A DNA stretch of 64,000 nucleotides from Bdellovibrio bacteriovorus str. Tiberius. Lineage in GTDB: Bacteria > Bdellovibrionota > Bdellovibrionia > Bdellovibrionales > Bdellovibrionaceae. This document shows, in pieces, positions 47,588-57,162 of this stretch; the first letter of the stretch is position 1; each line of letters opens with the position of its first letter. The translations under genes and the position numbers were made by a program. Under the pieces are notes generated by a model, which worked only from the letters and a program-made list of their open reading frames with translations, had not been told where the DNA came from and searched no databases. The stretch lies in the NCBI RefSeq assembly GCF_000317895.1, contig NC_019567.1, positions 2,356,001-2,420,000 on the forward strand. Reading direction: 5' to 3'.

Positions 47588-50368
47588 TTAAGGATGATAA
47601 ACGCAGCGATATCCGCTGTTGGTCAGAACCGCTGTCACATCCGCCGCACGCTTGGCGCTAAAGATCCCGGCGGAATTGCCATCCCCAGTTCCGCCACCAC
47701 GCCAGACACCCGTCACCGCCGAATTGCTGAAATCAATCTTACCAAAACCACAGTACTCTGGTCCACCGACTCCACTGCAAGTCACGGCCGTTGTACCAAA
47801 TGCCAGATTCAGGGCATCACCAGTGTTCTGGGCTGGATACACATAGGCCGGGCTGTAGATGACACTATTGGTGTCTTTGATCGCTTCCATGGCATTACCC
47901 GCGAAATCCCAGATAGTCTGACCGTAAGGAAGCGTGTGAGTTCTTCTTAAAGCATTGCTCGCACAAATAGCCGTATTCGGCGCGCAGACGTCCCCACCCG
48001 TGGCAGACACTGGAGACCCGGTCTGATTGTTCCCGCGATGCAAAAGTCCTGAGCCATAAATCCCGCTGGCCCAGTTTCCTGCCTGCTTCGCAATCAGATC
48101 GGCCACCGCACGCCATTCGGCATTGGTGACCAGATCATAGCCTGCCCCCAATGAAGTACAGCGCGAAACGGAACCCATATTGCTTAGACTTTCAGGTACA
48201 AGATCAGCAATAAAGCGCGGGCGCGCGGAACCGTCGTTCTTAGCTTCATACTGACCGATACAGAACGGATTCGCTACAATACCGGCATTATGAACATAGA
48301 CAAATTCCGCCGGGCACGAGAAAGCCACAAAGCTATTTGTCAAAGTGCTGCTATAGTTCCCCATTGGGTCTTTCAGACGCAGACTCATGGAATAAGTCAG
48401 ACCGGGCTGCAAAGCTGTCGACAATGAAGAGAATTTCACCGGACTTGTCACCTCAACCCAGTCGCGAATGACGGCCCCGTTGGACTGCTGCTGCAGGCGA
48501 AGTTCCGCCGTCAACACATCCGGATCCGAGGGGAAGGTGAAATTCACAAGGGGTGATTCCGTGTACAGCGGAGCAACAGCCCCCAATGTAAACGACGGAG
48601 CAACGTCCGGCCCCTGGGCGTCGACTTTCACGTTGGATGCTTTAAGGCCGTTGGCACCCGTATCAGCCGGCAACGTCATAGAAGCCTGCACAACTGGGTT
48701 GGCATTGTCGACAAGACACCCTGCACAGTTACTAAGGCTCGTGGATGTCACCCCCAGAGGGTAAGCATAGTTTCCGGCAAACACCACATAGTTGAATTGC
48801 AGTGTTCGCTGGTCCCCCTGCAGCGAAGCCGCCATCACAAGGACTCCGGTATTCAGAACCATGCTGGGCAGGTTCCCACCAATGACCTTCAGTTCACGAT
48901 CATACTCGACACGAAGACTGATCGTGGTGGAGTTGCCGTAATGAGCCCCGGGAACTGTCGCATAGACCCGGGTGATTTGCGGAACCGGGAAATCCGTTGT
49001 GAATGCAAATCCGGTATTTGACGCCGCCGTCTTGTTACCATTGGCATCAACCGCAAAGACATAAATCTTATAAGTTGAGTTCTGCTGAAGCACGCAGGCA
49101 GAGAAATCAATAGCCGAAGCCGCCACAGTTTTATCACACAACGTGGTGGCACCACTGCTGTCTTTAATATAGGCCTCGAACTGATTGAAATCTGATGGCA
49201 TCGTCAGATCGACCACAGCACCCTTGTCGCGAAGGAATGCATCTGCTGTCACATCAGCACCCGCCGTCGTGCGAACACCGGTGATTGTGAAGGCGCCAGG
49301 ACCAACAAGGTCCACGATAACATTCACCAGATTAGACATCCCCTGATTGCCTGCCCGATCGAACTGGGAAGCACGGATCGTTGGGAATCCATTGCCAGCC
49401 AGGAAATCAACTGTAAAAGTTCTCACCGCCGAACAGGTCACTTCGCGTACAACTGAATCCAGCTGCACCGAAACCGGCATTAAATCTTCAGAACATGTTC
49501 CTTGCACCGTGATAGTGTTGTCAGCGTTGATAGTTGATTGGGTGAACTTGGTGTTATTGACTGGTGACGTGATCTCCACCTCCGGAGCCGTCAAATCAAC
49601 CAAAACCTCTTTCTGCTCGAAACCAAAAACCCGGTAAGCGCCCGTGGACATGTGGTTGACCGAAATATTGGTCACACCATCACCCAAATTACTTTTCAGA
49701 GTCACCGCTGCAGAAAAAACACCGCCAGAACAATTCGCACTTTGTGGTCCGCCATCGAAGGGTCCGGTCAAATTCACCACGCCACCGTCGATTTCACAGG
49801 TGCCGCTGATTTCGTAATTTTGATTGCCCAGCTTCAATGTGTTAATACTTTCCGCGGTCAAACTGACACCCGGAGCAAAAATTATCAGTGAAAGGGTCTT
49901 GTTGAAAACAAACGTCTCCCCTTCAAGATTCTTCACATACCAGCGGATCTGGAAATCGTGAGCGGCATCCCCGGCAACGGTGGGTGTTTCATAAGGGAAG
50001 ATATGTTCTAACGGCAGTTTGAAAGTGGCTTTACCGGCATTGGCACAGTCGACCTTTGCCCCTGTCGCAAGCTCCGTGACATCACGCCACACCTTGGTTT
50101 GTGGATTTTCGGCTTCGATCTTTTCAATGGAGCGGTCACAGGTGATGCTAAGATCCACCCCGTCGGCTGAAGCTCCCAACTCGAAAGATCCCGTTCCCGT
50201 AAGATTGTCGATCGTGAACTCGCCCTTGCCGTTGATGGCTTTGTTTAAGAAGTCCATTTGCAGCGTGCGTTCGGTACAGCCCAAAATCAAAATAGACAAA
50301 AGCAGCAGACTGGCTGCTGCTTTGGTTTTCTTTAGAATTTCGGTCACTTCCCGCCTACCAACGTGCAT
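47588..50368 (-). CDS. Large lipoprotein with Ig-like modules and an FGE-like C-terminal domain
   Basis: The 926-residue protein has a signal peptide and lipobox LILGC about residue 31. It then carries several beta-rich segments of roughly 90 residues with Ig/cadherin style (for example VQGTCSEDLMPVSVQLDS and AGNQGMSNLVNVIVDLVGPG). From about residue 690 it has a formylglycine-generating-enzyme-like or C-type-lectin-like end: FCIGQYEAKNDGS, LVTNAEWRAVADLIA, GQTIWDFAGNAMEAI and NSGYRCVYHP. The catalytic Cys pair of true FGE is not evident, so this is likely a binding domain. It is monocistronic. The ATG at 50368 is my choice; a GTG at 50347 with a nearby GGGAA is possible. Confidence 0.82.
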   Translation of the reverse strand: MHVGRREVTEILKKTKAAASLLLLSILILGCTERTLQMDFLNKAINGKGEFTIDNLTGTGSFELGASADGVDLSITCDRSIEKIEAENPQTKVWRDVTELATGAKVDCANAGKATFKLPLEHIFPYETPTVAGDAAHDFQIRWYVKNLEGETFVFNKTLSLIIFAPGVSLTAESINTLKLGNQNYEISGTCEIDGGVVNLTGPFDGGPQSANCSGGVFSAAVTLKSNLGDGVTNISVNHMSTGAYRVFGFEQKEVLVDLTAPEVEITSPVNNTKFTQSTINADNTITVQGTCSEDLMPVSVQLDSVVREVTCSAVRTFTVDFLAGNGFPTIRASQFDRAGNQGMSNLVNVIVDLVGPGAFTITGVRTTAGADVTADAFLRDKGAVVDLTMPSDFNQFEAYIKDSSGATTLCDKTVAASAIDFSACVLQQNSTYKIYVFAVDANGNKTAASNTGFAFTTDFPVPQITRVYATVPGAHYGNSTTISLRVEYDRELKVIGGNLPSMVLNTGVLVMAASLQGDQRTLQFNYVVFAGNYAYPLGVTSTSLSNCAGCLVDNANPVVQASMTLPADTGANGLKASNVKVDAQGPDVAPSFTLGAVAPLYTESPLVNFTFPSDPDVLTAELRLQQQSNGAVIRDWVEVTSPVKFSSLSTALQPGLTYSMSLRLKDPMGNYSSTLTNSFVAFSCPAEFVYVHNAGIVANPFCIGQYEAKNDGSARPRFIADLVPESLSNMGSVSRCTSLGAGYDLVTNAEWRAVADLIAKQAGNWASGIYGSGLLHRGNNQTGSPVSATGGDVCAPNTAICASNALRRTHTLPYGQTIWDFAGNAMEAIKDTNSVIYSPAYVYPAQNTGDALNLAFGTTAVTCSGVGGPEYCGFGKIDFSNSAVTGVWRGGGTGDGNSAGIFSAKRAADVTAVLTNSGYRCVYHP

Positions 50369-50429
50369 GTTTATCTTATCGGAGATTGTGGAAAGCGACC
50401 TGAGTATCAAATTGAGAATCTGCGTCCAG

Positions 50430-51794
50430 TTAGTGCCAACGAACGTTCCGGTCTTCTTTGATAAAGATCATACCAATGGCGAAAGTCATCAGCGCAATGG
50501 ATATCGGATATATTAAGCCGGCGAAGTGGTTCCCGGTAGAAGCCACAATCGCCGTTCCGATGAACGGAACCAAGCCTCCGAACACCCCATTCCCGATATG
50601 ATATGGAAGAGACATCGAAGTATAGCGAATTTGTGTCGGGAAAAGTTCGACCAGGAAGGCGGCGATCGGTCCATACACCATCGTCACATAGATGACCTGA
50701 ATAAATACCAACAGAGTCAACATCACGACGTTGGGATTCACTGCCGTCGCCAATGGATCTGCCGGGTTCCAGCCAGAATAACGTTCCATCGCCTGATAGA
50801 TCGGATAGTACGTCAGCGCCGCGATCAGACACCCCGCCATCATGATATTCTTGCGCCCGATTTTATCAGACAGCCCGCCGAACACCACAAAGAACGGAGT
50901 TGCAAACAACAACGCCACCGCGATGATCTGATTGGCCACGACGAAATCGACCTTCAAAACTGTCTGCAAATAATAAAGAGCATAGAACTGACCGGTGTAC
51001 CAGACAACTCCCTGCCCGGCCGTGGCCCCCAGCAATGCCAAAATAACCAGACGGCGATTTTCAGGATGCAGAAAACTGTCCCGCAATGGACTTTTCGAGG
51101 ATTTGCCTTCGGCCTTCATCTGAATGAACACCGGGGATTCCTGCATCTTTCGGCGTATTAAATAAGACACCAAAACCAGAACCACCGACAGCAGGAATGG
51201 AATCCGCCAGCCCCATTCCTTAAAGGCGTCCTCACCCATCGTCAGACGGGTCAGCAGAATCACGCCCAGGGAAACAAACAGTCCCAGGGTCGCGGTGGTC
51301 TGAATAAAGGATGTATAAAAGCCCCGCTTGCCATCAGGGCTGTGTTCAGCCACGTAGGTGGCCGCCCCACCGTATTCGCCTCCTAATGCCAAGCCTTGCA
51401 GCAAGCGCAGAACCAATAACAGAATCGGCGCCAGAATCCCAATTGTTTCATAGCCCGGCAAAAGACCAATTGCCGTGGTCGCAAGACCCATAATCAGCAA
51501 CGTGACCATAAAGGCGTACTTACGTCCGACCACGTCTCCCACCCGGCCAAACACTAACGCACCAAAAGGACGAACAATAAAGCCCGTGGCGAACGTTGCC
51601 AACGTACTTAGCAACGCCACTGTTTCATGACCTTTAGGGAAAAATTGAGCAGAGATAATGGTGGCAAGACTTCCGAAGATATAAAAGTCATACCACTCAA
51701 TCAGAGTTCCGGCGCTGGACGCCCCAATGACTTTCCAAATTTTACTTTTATCGAAGACGGCTTTGCCCGCATCTTTGACAATAGCTGTAGCCAT
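50430..51794 (-). CDS. MHS-family MFS transporter (metabolite:proton symporter)
   Basis: The 454-residue protein fits the MHS group of the major facilitator superfamily, which take up organic acids or betaines with protons: SAGTLIEWYDFYIFGSLAT, RPFGALVFGRVGDVVGRKYA, LLQGLALGGEYGGAATYVAE and FGGLSDKIGRKNIMMAG. Twelve membrane segments are expected. The site GAGGGGAACG precedes the ATG. It lies between two large genes on the same strand (lipoprotein downstream and ABC1-kinase upstream), each separated by gaps, so its promoter is probably its own. Substrate not readable. Confidence 0.9.
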   Translation of the reverse strand: MATAIVKDAGKAVFDKSKIWKVIGASSAGTLIEWYDFYIFGSLATIISAQFFPKGHETVALLSTLATFATGFIVRPFGALVFGRVGDVVGRKYAFMVTLLIMGLATTAIGLLPGYETIGILAPILLLVLRLLQGLALGGEYGGAATYVAEHSPDGKRGFYTSFIQTTATLGLFVSLGVILLTRLTMGEDAFKEWGWRIPFLLSVVLVLVSYLIRRKMQESPVFIQMKAEGKSSKSPLRDSFLHPENRRLVILALLGATAGQGVVWYTGQFYALYYLQTVLKVDFVVANQIIAVALLFATPFFVVFGGLSDKIGRKNIMMAGCLIAALTYYPIYQAMERYSGWNPADPLATAVNPNVVMLTLLVFIQVIYVTMVYGPIAAFLVELFPTQIRYTSMSLPYHIGNGVFGGLVPFIGTAIVASTGNHFAGLIYPISIALMTFAIGMIFIKEDRNVRWH

Positions 51795-51884: not shown

Positions 51885-51906
51885 GGGACTGTCGAAGCGC
51901 AGTCCC
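51885..51906 (-). terminator. Terminator after the exported ABC1-kinase gene
   Basis: On the minus strand GGGACTG and CAGTCCC form a seven-pair stem with an eight-base loop, followed by TTAATTAAT. It touches the last base of the kinase stop codon and lies upstream of the transporter gene. Confidence 0.7.
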
Positions 51907-53993
51907 TAGTTGAACACCATTTCACAGCGAATAACCGCCGCCGGTGTCGCCGCTTTTGCCGGGATCACCTTTGGCGAAAGACCCAGCATGTCTTTCATTT
52001 CAATCCATCCAAGCTTCACAAGCTCTTTGTGAGAGATCTTGCCCTCAATCGCCAAAGCCTTGTAAACGCGTGCCGGGTTTTTAACGGCCATACTCTTCAT
52101 CAAAGAGCTGATGGACATCGTGCTGCCAGCATCCGTCAGCAGTTTATTCACGATCACGATACCGCGGTTCAGACTGACGAACTCATACGGCAGACGAAGC
52201 CCCAGATCCATCACCCAGGCAGTCCACATTTCCATTGTCAGTGGCTGTTCATACCCGTGGCGGATGTTGTGCATCTTGGCCTCGATCATGAACTGAAGAC
52301 GGCTTTGCGTGATTGTGCTTTTCTGCTTGTCAGCGATATTCCAGAAAGCACGAGCCATGGTTTCAGAGTTTAACAATTCAGTCCCTGCGCCCAACAGCAT
52401 GACTTGCGTCTGCATATCACGGCTGATCACTCCGCCCATTCCGTAATCCAGAATGTTGACGATGATTTTAGGCTCGGTCACCTGGATCATGAAGTTCCCC
52501 TGGTGCAGATCCGAATGATAGAATCCGCCGCCAAACATCACTTCCTGAGCCCAGACGCGGGCCATTTGTTCGATGATCACACGTTTCATGTCAGGCGCAA
52601 TGTCCTTGTAAATCGCGACTTCTTTATCCAGCTTTTTTCCGATGACCAGTTCTTGCACCATGAACTTAGAGCCTTTTTTACCGTCATAAATCTTCGGCAC
52701 ATGGAACTGGATTTCGTTTTTATAGTCTGGCGTGTTCATGAACGCCATTTTTTCATAGCGAGTCGCTGCAAGCTTTTGGCGAGCCACTGTATCTTCCTGA
52801 CTTAGTTCTGCCAAAACAGTGTCGGTGATATCCTGCACCACCGGAGTCAGTTTCGGAGCACCCGTTTTACGGAATTCTGGGTTGGAATCCAGAATTTCAG
52901 CCACATCCATCAGGATGCGTTTGTCTTCTTCCACACGGTCTGCGATGCCGGGCTTGATGAAACGAACAACCACGTCGCGGCGCTCGCCATCAATAACAAC
53001 CTTCGCACGGTGAACCTGAGCCATCGTTCCGACACCCAGGGGTTTTCTTTCAAAATAGTTGAACTTGTAATTGCCGTTTTCAGAATTCAAAAGCTTTTCC
53101 ACCTGAGACCACGGTACCGGGCGCACCGAGTTTTCAAGGCCGCGGAAGACCTCAACCATGTCTGGCCCCAGATCCGCCTGACGAGCCACCACCTGAAGCA
53201 GCTTTTGCAGTTGCGGACCGCTGTTTTGAACCATCAGTTCAAACTTTTTCATTTCCGGCATATTCAGATCACTGCCCAAATAAGAAGACACGATCAGCTT
53301 TTTTGAAGCCGGGCTTAGACGTCTGAAATATTCGCTGAACATCGTCTGCAGGAAGATCTTCATCGTCGCATCCTGCTGCTGACCCAGCTTGGATTCTGCG
53401 ATCTTTTCACCCACGCGATCCAGTTCTTTCATCTTTTCAGTTAACAGAGCATCACTTTCAGCCAAAACCCAGCCTTCAGCCAGCTTCTGGCCTTCCGGGT
53501 TTTGCGCCAGAGCCATCACCTGGGCCGCCAGGGCTTCCATCGGCATCTTTTGTTCAAGCTGGTCCTGAGGAACCATGTCCTTCAGTTTTTGCTGCTGCCA
53601 TTCAAGATAGGTTTCAATCTGCTTTTGCACGCGCGCGCTGTCGGAAGTATAGGTGCGCATGGCTTTGGCACCACGGGCTTCGATCATTTCCAGATCCAAA
53701 GACACGCTATGGGTGTTGGGCCATTCGCCTTTATGAAGTTTCAGGAATTCATCGAAATTGCGCACTTTAACGGTTTCAACTTCTGCCTGATAAACGGAAG
53801 AGAAATAGTTTTTGGCTCTTTCCAGAATCTGTTCTTTGTTGTCGGCCGTTTCCCCTTGGGCCATCAGGGCATAGGTCAGCGCCAGTCTTTCTTCAAAAGA
53901 CAGATGCAAGCCGACTTTCTCAGGCGTCACCGCCCAGGCAAAGCGACCAAGGATCAGTATGAATAATATCAAGAAACGCAACTGTCTCAACAT
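51906..53993 (-). CDS. Exported ABC1/UbiB-like atypical kinase
   Basis: The 695-residue protein has a clear signal sequence or membrane anchor (1-21, LRFLILFILILGRFAWA). After 230 residues of helical, Gln- and Glu-rich sequence comes an ABC1 kinase-like domain (about 255-540). Its family marks are altered. The KxGQ motif reads KLLQ (264-267), the Ala-rich loop reads GVGTMAQVH, and the ATP-binding Lys is Arg344 (VVVRFIKPGI). The catalytic loop YHSDLHQGNF and the LDYGMGG metal motif are kept. Known relatives (UbiB, ADCK3) face the cytoplasm or matrix and support ubiquinone synthesis. An exported copy without ATP nearby would need another function. Export rests on the hydrophobic start only. Confidence 0.85.
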   Translation of the reverse strand: MLRQLRFLILFILILGRFAWAVTPEKVGLHLSFEERLALTYALMAQGETADNKEQILERAKNYFSSVYQAEVETVKVRNFDEFLKLHKGEWPNTHSVSLDLEMIEARGAKAMRTYTSDSARVQKQIETYLEWQQQKLKDMVPQDQLEQKMPMEALAAQVMALAQNPEGQKLAEGWVLAESDALLTEKMKELDRVGEKIAESKLGQQQDATMKIFLQTMFSEYFRRLSPASKKLIVSSYLGSDLNMPEMKKFELMVQNSGPQLQKLLQVVARQADLGPDMVEVFRGLENSVRPVPWSQVEKLLNSENGNYKFNYFERKPLGVGTMAQVHRAKVVIDGERRDVVVRFIKPGIADRVEEDKRILMDVAEILDSNPEFRKTGAPKLTPVVQDITDTVLAELSQEDTVARQKLAATRYEKMAFMNTPDYKNEIQFHVPKIYDGKKGSKFMVQELVIGKKLDKEVAIYKDIAPDMKRVIIEQMARVWAQEVMFGGGFYHSDLHQGNFMIQVTEPKIIVNILDYGMGGVISRDMQTQVMLLGAGTELLNSETMARAFWNIADKQKSTITQSRLQFMIEAKMHNIRHGYEQPLTMEMWTAWVMDLGLRLPYEFVSLNRGIVIVNKLLTDAGSTMSISSLMKSMAVKNPARVYKALAIEGKISHKELVKLGWIEMKDMLGLSPKVIPAKAATPAAVIRCEMVFN

Positions 53994-54153
53994 GATACAC
54001 CCTTAAATTAGATAATTCAGGGATCTAGCTGCACAGTTTGGACCCGGCGGGTTTTGTGTTTTATAAGATCTGATATGGTTAAGAAATTGGCAGTGCCCCA
54101 GAAGTGTCACGTTCTACTGCCTTGACCGGGTTCATTTTTGGTCTGAAACTTCA

Positions 54154-56190: not shown

Positions 56191-57162
56191 CTACTTACCC
56201 ATTACATAAGCGAAGATCAGAGGCGCAACGATAGTTGCATCGGATTCAACGATGTAGCTAGGAGTTGTCGGAGCCAGTTTACCCCAGGTGATTTTTTCGT
56301 TCGGAATCGCACCAGAGTATGAACCGTAAGAAGTTGTAGAATCAGAGATCTGAGCGAAGTAGCTCCACAATGGAATGTCTTCGTGACCCAAATCCTGTTC
56401 CAGCATTGGAACAACACAGATTGGGAAGTCGCCGGCGATACCGCCACCGATCTGGAAGAAGCCCACTGGTGCTTTTTTGGAAGCACTCATGTACCACTCA
56501 GCCCAGGTTTTCATGTACTCGATACCACCTTTAACAGTGGTGGATTTTTTGATGTCACCTTTGATGATGTGACCAGTGAAGATGTTACCCAAAGTGGAGT
56601 CTTCCCAGCCTGGAACAACCATTGGAAGGTTCTTTTCAGCAGCCGCCAGCAACCAGGAATTTTTTGGATCGATCTGGTAGTACTGGTTCAATTTGCCGGA
56701 AAGAAGGATTTTGTACATGAATTCGTGCGGGAAGTAAGACTCACCTTTGGAGTCAGCATCCTGCCAGTATTCCAAAACCACGTTCTCGATACGACGGATA
56801 GCTTCTTCTTCAGGGATGCACGTGTCAGTAACACGGTTCAAGTGCTTCTCAAGCAATTTTTGCTCGTCAGCCGGAGTCAGATCACGATAGTTCGGGATGC
56901 GCACGTAATGATCGTGAGCAACCAGGTTGAACACGTCTTCTTCAAGGTTCGCACCTGTGCAAGAGATCGCGTGAACTTTACCCATGCGGATCATTTCAGC
57001 CAAAGAAAGACCCAGTTCCGCTGTAGACATGGCACCTGCCAAAGTCACCAGCATCTGGCCACCGTTATCCATGTGAAGTTTGTAGCCTTTAGCAGCATCT
57101 TTCAATGCAGCGGCGTTGAAGTGACGGTAGTGATGATCGATAAACTGAGTAATTGGACCCAT
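56191..57162 (-). CDS. Deoxyhypusine-synthase-like protein without the usual Lys motif
   Basis: The 323-residue protein is a bacterial deoxyhypusine-synthase-family member: VTLAGAMSTAELGLSLAEMI, ISCTGANLEEDVFNLVAHDH, YFPHEFMYKIL and VVPGWEDSTLGNIFTGHI are typical. True eukaryotic enzymes use a Lys in a GGG-x-x-K-H motif. Here it reads QIGGGIAGDFPICVVPMLEQ, so that Lys is absent. Bacteria lack eIF5A, the usual substrate. Relatives in bacteria are thought to act on polyamines (homospermidine synthase-like), and NAD-binding residues seem kept. AAGGAGAA precedes the ATG. The methyltransferase gene upstream is on the same strand, 136 bases away. Confidence 0.88.
   Translation of the reverse strand: MGPITQFIDHHYRHFNAAALKDAAKGYKLHMDNGGQMLVTLAGAMSTAELGLSLAEMIRMGKVHAISCTGANLEEDVFNLVAHDHYVRIPNYRDLTPADEQKLLEKHLNRVTDTCIPEEEAIRRIENVVLEYWQDADSKGESYFPHEFMYKILLSGKLNQYYQIDPKNSWLLAAAEKNLPMVVPGWEDSTLGNIFTGHIIKGDIKKSTTVKGGIEYMKTWAEWYMSASKKAPVGFFQIGGGIAGDFPICVVPMLEQDLGHEDIPLWSYFAQISDSTTSYGSYSGAIPNEKITWGKLAPTTPSYIVESDATIVAPLIFAYVMGK

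Follow-up and report, generated by a model that had tools for sequence, protein, structure and literature searches.

The window analysed here, a stretch of 64,000 nucleotides at positions 2356001-2420000 of the complete 3,988,594-base genome of Bdellovibrio bacteriovorus str. Tiberius, carries a gene for a protein which, judged from its sequence, we read as an envelope-located variant of the ABC1 family with a portable terminal cysteine tag. In the preferred interpretation, to which a probability of about one half is given, the protein would retain a site for Mg and a phosphate-bearing ligand, would serve the handling of membrane lipids, and would be tethered by its terminal Cys. The predicted exported ABC1 proteins have a common origin, form one clade, and were found here only in Bdellovibrionota.

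The gene begins with an ATG at 53993-53991 and ends with a TAG at 51908-51906, and the plus strand of 51906-53993 holds shorter overlapping frames only. It is one of three ABC1 genes in its genome, the other two being of the ordinary type. An earlier note on this DNA had described an ABC1/UbiB-like kinase with a signal sequence and altered ATP-site residues. The altered protein is real: R344, K264/L266/Q267, G320/G322, D495, N500 and D516 were confirmed at the codon level, and the motifs are fixed across the clade. Three features were absent from that description, namely the C-terminal Cys (C690), the loss of the alpha-C Glu (T402), and the loss of the C-terminal transmembrane segment. The parts of the gene are listed in Table 1.

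Table 1. Positions in the window, strand, and basis of assignment for the parts of the ABC1 gene
Feature	Position	Strand	Basis
ABC1/UbiB-fold gene, predicted exported product, 695 aa	51906..53993	-	ORF, Pfam, orthologues
AAGGG, likely ribosome-binding site	54000..54004	-	sequence; six bases upstream of ATG
Predicted signal peptide, residues 1-21 (A-W-A before V22), Sec/SPI type	53931..53993	-	sequence, hydrophobicity, family comparison
N-terminal extension, mostly helical, residues 22-245, no match to a family	53259..53930	-	predicted model
K264-L-L-Q267, counterpart of UbiB KxGQ; K and Q kept, G lost	53193..53204	-	alignment, codons
G320-V-G-T-M-A-Q326, counterpart of Ala-rich loop; G322 aligns with COQ8A A339	53016..53036	-	alignment
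R344 (CGT) at beta-3 lysine position (COQ8A K358)	52962..52964	-	alignment, codon
E396 (ExD Glu counterpart, COQ8A E405) to Q406	52776..52808	-	ungapped MAFFT alignment with canonical proteins
T402 at alpha-C Glu position (COQ8A E411)	within 52776..52808	-	ungapped MAFFT alignment
Catalytic loop H493-S-D495-L-H-Q-G-N500	52494..52517	-	alignment
D516-Y-G518, DFG motif	52440..52448	-	alignment
R610, counterpart of UbiB Arg/Lys holding the catalytic Asp (COQ8A R611)	52164..52166	-	alignment only
Terminal cysteine box R689-C690-E-M-V-F-N695, end of disordered tail	51909..51929	-	sequence, predicted model

The Pfam profile of ABC1 (PF03109) matches residues 286-532 with 106.5 bits (cut-off 22.9), and the best sequence match in the PDB is COQ8A (phmmer, E 1.4e-09). 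As the earlier note had proposed, a structure was predicted, from 45 clade sequences, and the protein was aligned with UbiB/COQ8. The model (mean pLDDT 84.6, pTM 0.77) has the ABC1 fold with COQ8A as its top match, both in Foldseek (E 1.6e-11) and in VIA (Z 17.5, 345 residues, rmsd 3.9 A, other ABC1 structures following), the matches spanning mainly residues 246-647 and barely covering the N-terminal extension. In contrast, the NCBIfam equivalog for UbiB (TIGR01982) scores 117.1 bits, far under its cut-off of 487.55; because of this low score, the protein is classified as one of the ABC1 fold but not as UbiB proper. Of the residues that define ABC1 proteins, the catalytic Asp (D495), the Asn (N500), the DFG Asp (D516) and the Arg (R610) are present, while the KxGQ motif, the Ala-rich loop, the beta-3 Lys and the alpha-C Glu are not; the C-terminal transmembrane helices of UbiB are also missing. 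Catalytic motif residues are lost as in pseudokinases, these being the Lys and Glu of the salt bridge, with the Glu position taken from the ungapped alignment. PADLOC gives a weak match to the PD-T4-6 kinase (27.9 bits), confined to the catalytic loop.

In a tree of 62 rows, all 41 exported rows fall into one clade (support 100/100), which splits into an outer branch (n = 11, 99/99) and a core branch (n = 30, 100/99), and the canonical ABC1 proteins of Bdellovibrionota and of other phyla lie outside it. The residue counts given below refer to 30 rows labelled core, 11 labelled outer and 21 canonical rows, in which L064 counts as core and L249 as outer, although the tree places L064 in the outer branch and L249 in the core branch. 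An orthologue is present in 21 of 24 genomes of the genus. Across the phylum, 59 of 368 genomes have a match of at least 300 bits to the clade profile; further long, divergent relatives score below 300 bits. At two loci, L083:675-4448:+ (G052) and L244 (G340), the ABC1 domain lies towards the C-terminus of a 1258-aa putative exported protein, which also has the terminal Cys of the clade.

Outside the phylum, an alignment scan of 84,980 species, which depends on short conserved peptides, so that very distant exported ABC1 proteins of other phyla could escape it, gave clade members only from kin of Bdellovibrio and Bacteriovorax and from uncultured bins among the best 80 of 319 matches. The scan yielded 79 loci. 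Thirty-five (L085-L119) score as clade members with 262 to 932 bits; by their titles they come from kin of Bdellovibrio/Bacteriovorax or from bins of uncultured 'Proteobacteria/Deltaproteobacteria/Oligoflexia'. The other 44 (L120-L163) encode canonical ABC1 proteins of other phyla and score 74 to 108 bits. A scan of genome contigs with the window protein alone, whose patterns are too specific, returned no relative. On plasmids, tblastn found, among the matches listed, only canonical AarF/UbiB proteins at less than 30% identity.

Export of the proteins of this clade is well supported by their predicted N-termini. The window protein begins with MLRQLRFLILFILILGRFAWA, followed by VT, and the A-W-A that comes after a hydrophobic stretch is found also in the nearest orthologues. 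Among 72 exported members with an intact N-terminus (L024, L237 and L250 being left out), 71 pass a signal heuristic that asks for a basic start followed by a strongly hydrophobic segment; this is our own hydrophobicity rule and not SignalP, with a threshold of 2.0 and one start-codon rule for all proteins including controls. The threshold is reached by none of eight canonical ABC1 proteins of the phylum (L002 not scored) and by 3 of 44 from other phyla (L141, L142, L149). A lipobox pattern occurs in 15 of the 71 passing members, 13 of them in or adjoining the Bacteriovorax-like branch, although two of the 15 (L233, L249) may be chance matches within the hydrophobic stretch. A strict small-x-Ala motif lies near the expected cleavage site in 47 of the 56 non-lipobox members. 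A lipobox in one branch and small-x-Ala at the same place in the other are hard to explain without export. The signal sequence claimed in the earlier note is thereby strengthened, and the heuristic and the conservation gave no sign that the N-terminus is anything other than a signal sequence. The accompanying statement that known ABC1 proteins are cytoplasmic or located in an organelle matrix went too far. According to excerpts of PMC10214851, the yeast protein Cqd1 is exposed to the intermembrane space of mitochondria and has an effect on lipid homeostasis, and Mcp2 (Cqd2) is named as facing the same space in the reference list of that paper.

The nucleotide pocket differs between the branches. 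Every one of the 41 exported rows retains K264 and Q267 of KxGQ, while the Gly of this motif is lost in all of them (30/30 core, 11/11 outer) and kept in 21/21 canonical rows. At the position of COQ8A A339 (G322), 28/30 core rows have Gly and 21/21 canonical rows have Ala. The beta-3 Lys position (R344) is occupied by Arg in 27/30 core rows and by Lys in 10/11 outer and 21/21 canonical rows; K347, three residues further on, is found in 28/30 core rows, and its canonical counterpart is the Arg of the RPG motif. The alpha-C Glu is lost in 29/30 core rows and kept in 10/11 outer and 21/21 canonical rows, and Q406, one helical turn past T402, is Gln in 26/30 core rows and in no outer or canonical row, in a register behind E396 that rests on the ungapped MAFFT alignment and that phmmer shifts by four residues. 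D495, N500, D516 and R610 show no variation among the 41 exported rows.

Since the outer branch combines a predicted export signal with the canonical Lys/Glu pocket and the core branch has the changed pocket, putative export, together with the loss of the KxGQ Gly, preceded the pocket change, in which the Lys, its partner Glu and the loop Ala changed as a set in the core. The altered ATP-site residues pointed out in the earlier note are thus borne out, and to them is added the alpha-C Glu, the partner of the beta-3 Lys. Its further suggestion of a catalytically poor protein or pseudokinase stands in part. The loss of Lys and Glu makes it plausible, whereas a dead enzyme is not established, because D495, N500 and D516 never vary and G322 matches the activating A339G change of COQ8A. 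With this change ATP preference and autophosphorylation are restored (excerpts of PMC4718504), and in human COQ8A it raises ATPase activity (excerpts of PMC7263595).

The terminal Cys of the clade is the new feature reported here. The C-terminus is intact in 73 exported members (L014 and L237, cut or incomplete there, being left out), and 69 of these carry a Cys among their final 21 residues, as compared with none of 52 canonical proteins (8 of the phylum and 44 of other phyla). When the residues of each protein are shuffled, the number of such members averages 3.3 and reaches 9 at most. The four exceptions are L235, L238, L240 and L243, two of which have a Cys at 29 and one at 46 residues from the end. 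In 50 of the 73 the mature part has no other Cys, and C690 is the only Cys of the window protein, in a tail whose residues 675-695 have a pLDDT below 50. Within the genus the Cys is followed by V/I at +3 in 20/20 and by F at +4 in 19/20 ABC1 proteins. A C-terminal transmembrane segment is predicted in 20 of 21 canonical proteins and in 1 of 73 exported ones. The putative exported clade is marked by a conserved terminal Cys box and by the loss of the C-terminal membrane segment.

The same spacing, C-x-x-[VIL]-[FLM], occurs at the C-terminus of unrelated Bdellovibrio families predicted to be exported, and behind the signal peptide in others. In the 1.664 Mb of the window's own genome that was read (42%), exported-like proteins of at least 150 aa with one mature Cys have this Cys 4-10 residues from the end in six cases against 1.14 expected, one of the six being probably not exported; the figures for non-exported single-Cys proteins are 3 and 3.09. 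Two of the six led to families. P0002 (L179:17589-18920:-, genome 3017592-3018920) is a putative exported protein of 443 aa ending in CGRVFNH, with the fold of NIS siderophore synthetases (AcsD, E 5.6e-11). In its 18 loci in relatives the Cys is among the last 8 residues in 16, at -12 in one, and lacking in one; V/I is found at +3 in 11/15 and F at +4 in 10/15, the remaining residues being hydrophobic apart from two exceptions at +3, with no exception at +4. P0003 (L200:17735-18526:+, genome 3237735-3238523), a HAD-like protein (DIDWT) of 263 aa, likewise predicted to be exported and ending in CGRVF, is restricted to the genus in a search of 44 genomes. Its terminal Cys is present in 15 of 17 loci, with V/I at +3 and F at +4 in 15/15; the two remaining loci are fragments of a single broken gene. 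Even where the tails of orthologues can no longer be aligned, the box is conserved. A single genome (G025, 2,657,893 bases) is without the exported ABC1 gene, P0002 and P0003.

Two more families carry the box behind the signal peptide. P0004, a candidate exported glutamine-deamidase-like protein (19.6 bits, under the Pfam cut-off of 25), belongs to a family (L260:9270-10052:+ and L333-L338 among its loci) with the box at the C-terminus in six of 13 loci, directly behind the signal peptide in five, and at neither place in two; the five N-terminal-box homologues (e.g. SRCEAVFG) have no box at the C-terminus. In the family of L282:5013-5984:- (genome 1865016-1865984; 323 aa, probably exported, no Pfam match) the sole mature Cys belongs to an RCESVF that comes immediately after the signal peptide in 15/15 loci, including L366; a paralogue lies at 1111896-1112879 of the same genome. 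Further single cases are L336:211-1362 (C-terminal) and L373:370-1338 (N-terminal). P0005, a C92 amidase, is a doubtful carrier, with a tail box in 5 of 20 homologues. A PLD lipoprotein (L255:5460-7004) with a Cys 10 residues from the end was judged incidental; its end presumably is like those of ordinary PLD proteins. Behind signal peptides no general enrichment of the box was found in the own genome (1 observed, 0.82 expected), and the case for the N-terminal box rests on conservation in families. The pattern was noticed post hoc; what lends it weight is that orthologues conserve it and that it switches ends in the deamidase family.

A tentative wider reading, which we consider possible but do not favour, is that Bdellovibrionota anchor or route exported enzymes of cytoplasmic type by a portable box, [RS]-C-x-x-[VIL]-F, placed C-terminally or behind the signal peptide, and that the carriers act in the ATP-bearing prey. 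The carriers would be the kinase-like ABC1 protein, which is the most widespread, the NIS-synthetase fold, the HAD-phosphatase-like and glutamine-deamidase-like proteins, and the family without a Pfam match. The ATP-using folds among them suggest action in an ATP-bearing compartment outside the predator cytoplasm, i.e. in the prey. It is somewhat doubtful, though it deserves weight, that in each protein the terminal Cys simply forms an ordinary disulfide of a dimer and that like boxes elsewhere are coincidences found by looking. The post hoc discovery, the small excess in the own genome (six against 1.14, one of the six probably not exported), and the 15 of 20 C92 homologues without a box speak for coincidence. 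It accords poorly, however, with the same spacing of Cys, V/I at +3 and F at +4 in three unrelated families, with a box that persists where the tails cannot be aligned, with its swap from C- to N-terminus among the deamidase-like proteins, and with its presence in every member of the L282:5013-5984 family.

For the window protein itself, the preferred reading places the ABC1 variant outside the inner membrane of the predator or further out, where C690 would hold it through a lipid, a disulfide or another thiol link, canonical UbiB using two C-terminal transmembrane helices instead. A nucleotide or another phosphate-bearing ligand may still be bound through D516, N500 and R344, and binding would be coupled to the handling of lipids or isoprenoids of the envelope membrane, as in UbiB, COQ8 and Cqd1, rather than to protein phosphorylation. 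Against it stand the periplasm, where to our knowledge no ATP is expected, the loss of both partners of the Lys-Glu salt bridge, which is costly to activity in most kinases, the score far under the cut-off of the UbiB equivalog, the signal peptides predicted from a hydrophobicity rule and the lipobox, and the finding that no neighbour pointing to lipids or quinones is conserved across the 51 loci examined. The loss of this pair in nearly all core members and a location that, as far as we know, lacks ATP would also suit an exported pseudokinase without nucleotide binding, used as a platform for lipids or proteins. One would expect the residues of a dead site to drift, however, and here the catalytic Asp, Asn and DFG Asp are invariant and Gly has come back at the A339 site in most core members; such a scaffold thus seems unlikely. 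The maintenance of catalytic residues despite a predator periplasm that should be free of ATP would be understandable if the enzyme were delivered to the prey cytoplasm and worked there with ATP, the Cys box being a shared route of delivery or anchoring. Two box families with folds of ATP users (ABC1 and the NIS-synthetase fold) and carriers resembling HAD phosphatases and, below the Pfam cut-off, glutamine deamidases, activities common in injected effectors, are in line with this. Yet the Bacteriovorax-like members are predicted lipoproteins, which favours an envelope anchor, the gene is present in most genomes of the genus and absent from many family members, and no secretion route is known for the ABC1 variant, type III, IV and VI systems being reported absent from B. 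bacteriovorus in excerpts of PMC7174725. A prey-directed enzyme is accordingly judged improbable. It is very unlikely that the N-terminal helix stays uncleaved and anchors the protein in the membrane, with the domain outside or, less likely, inside: the strict small-x-Ala motif is indeed lacking in nine of the 56 non-lipobox members, but A-W-A follows the hydrophobic stretch in the window protein and its nearest orthologues, and the Bacteriovorax-like branch has a lipobox instead, which by definition is cleaved. An envelope location as in the preferred reading has a precedent in Cqd1, which lies on the periplasm-like side of its membrane with a role in lipid homeostasis (excerpts of PMC10214851).

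The surroundings of the gene are variable. In 51 non-redundant loci no neighbour is common to the whole clade, and gene neighbourhood was rejected as a functional clue on this ground; the only neighbours that recur in the genus are an MFS transporter, an FGE-like lipoprotein and a MOSC protein. The MFS transporter (50430-51794, minus strand) lies directly downstream on the same strand and adjoins the ABC1 gene in 4 of 51 loci. An ORF at 47588-50410 (minus strand) encodes a lipoprotein-like product of 940 aa without a Pfam match, which recurs near the ABC1 gene in the genus and whose end we take to resemble an FGE-type domain. At 56191-57162 (minus strand) a deoxyhypusine-synthase-like protein is encoded (PF01916, 142.6 bits), here in a bacterium.

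The UbiB family is large, and what its members do is still debated. A natural clade in which the fold has moved across the membrane, the metal-binding residues are kept, and Lys, Glu and loop have changed together allows a direct test of how the parts of the protein divide between ATP and lipids. Should the terminal Cys box prove to be a shared tag, the exported tools of predatory bacteria, in which secretion is described as largely unexplored (excerpts of PMC12622784), could be listed and tested by means of it. Searches of open-access PMC texts returned no paper that describes either an exported ABC1 protein or a terminal cysteine box of Bdellovibrio.

Several known systems may be compared. 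The NIS synthetases (AcsD, IucA/IucC) are like P0002 in fold only and are unrelated to the window protein; P0002 is smaller (443 aa) and predicted to be exported. Mycobacterial Rv3197 and MSMEG_1954 resemble the predicted model in fold (Z 12.7 to 14.7), and we know of no report that they are exported. Yeast Cqd1 and Mcp2/Cqd2 also have the kinase-like domain on the periplasm-equivalent side of the membrane (excerpts of PMC10214851), but they are mitochondrial and held by transmembrane segments, and are likened to the bacterial clade by location and not by sequence. With UbiB/COQ8 (PF03109) the window protein shares the fold, the K and Q of KxGQ, the ExD Glu, the catalytic Asp and Asn, the DFG Asp, and the Arg opposite the catalytic Asp. 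In contrast to UbiB/COQ8, it is predicted to be exported, has the KxGQ Gly, the Ala-rich loop, the beta-3 Lys and the alpha-C Glu replaced, and has 245 extra N-terminal residues and a disordered tail with one Cys in place of the C-terminal transmembrane helices.
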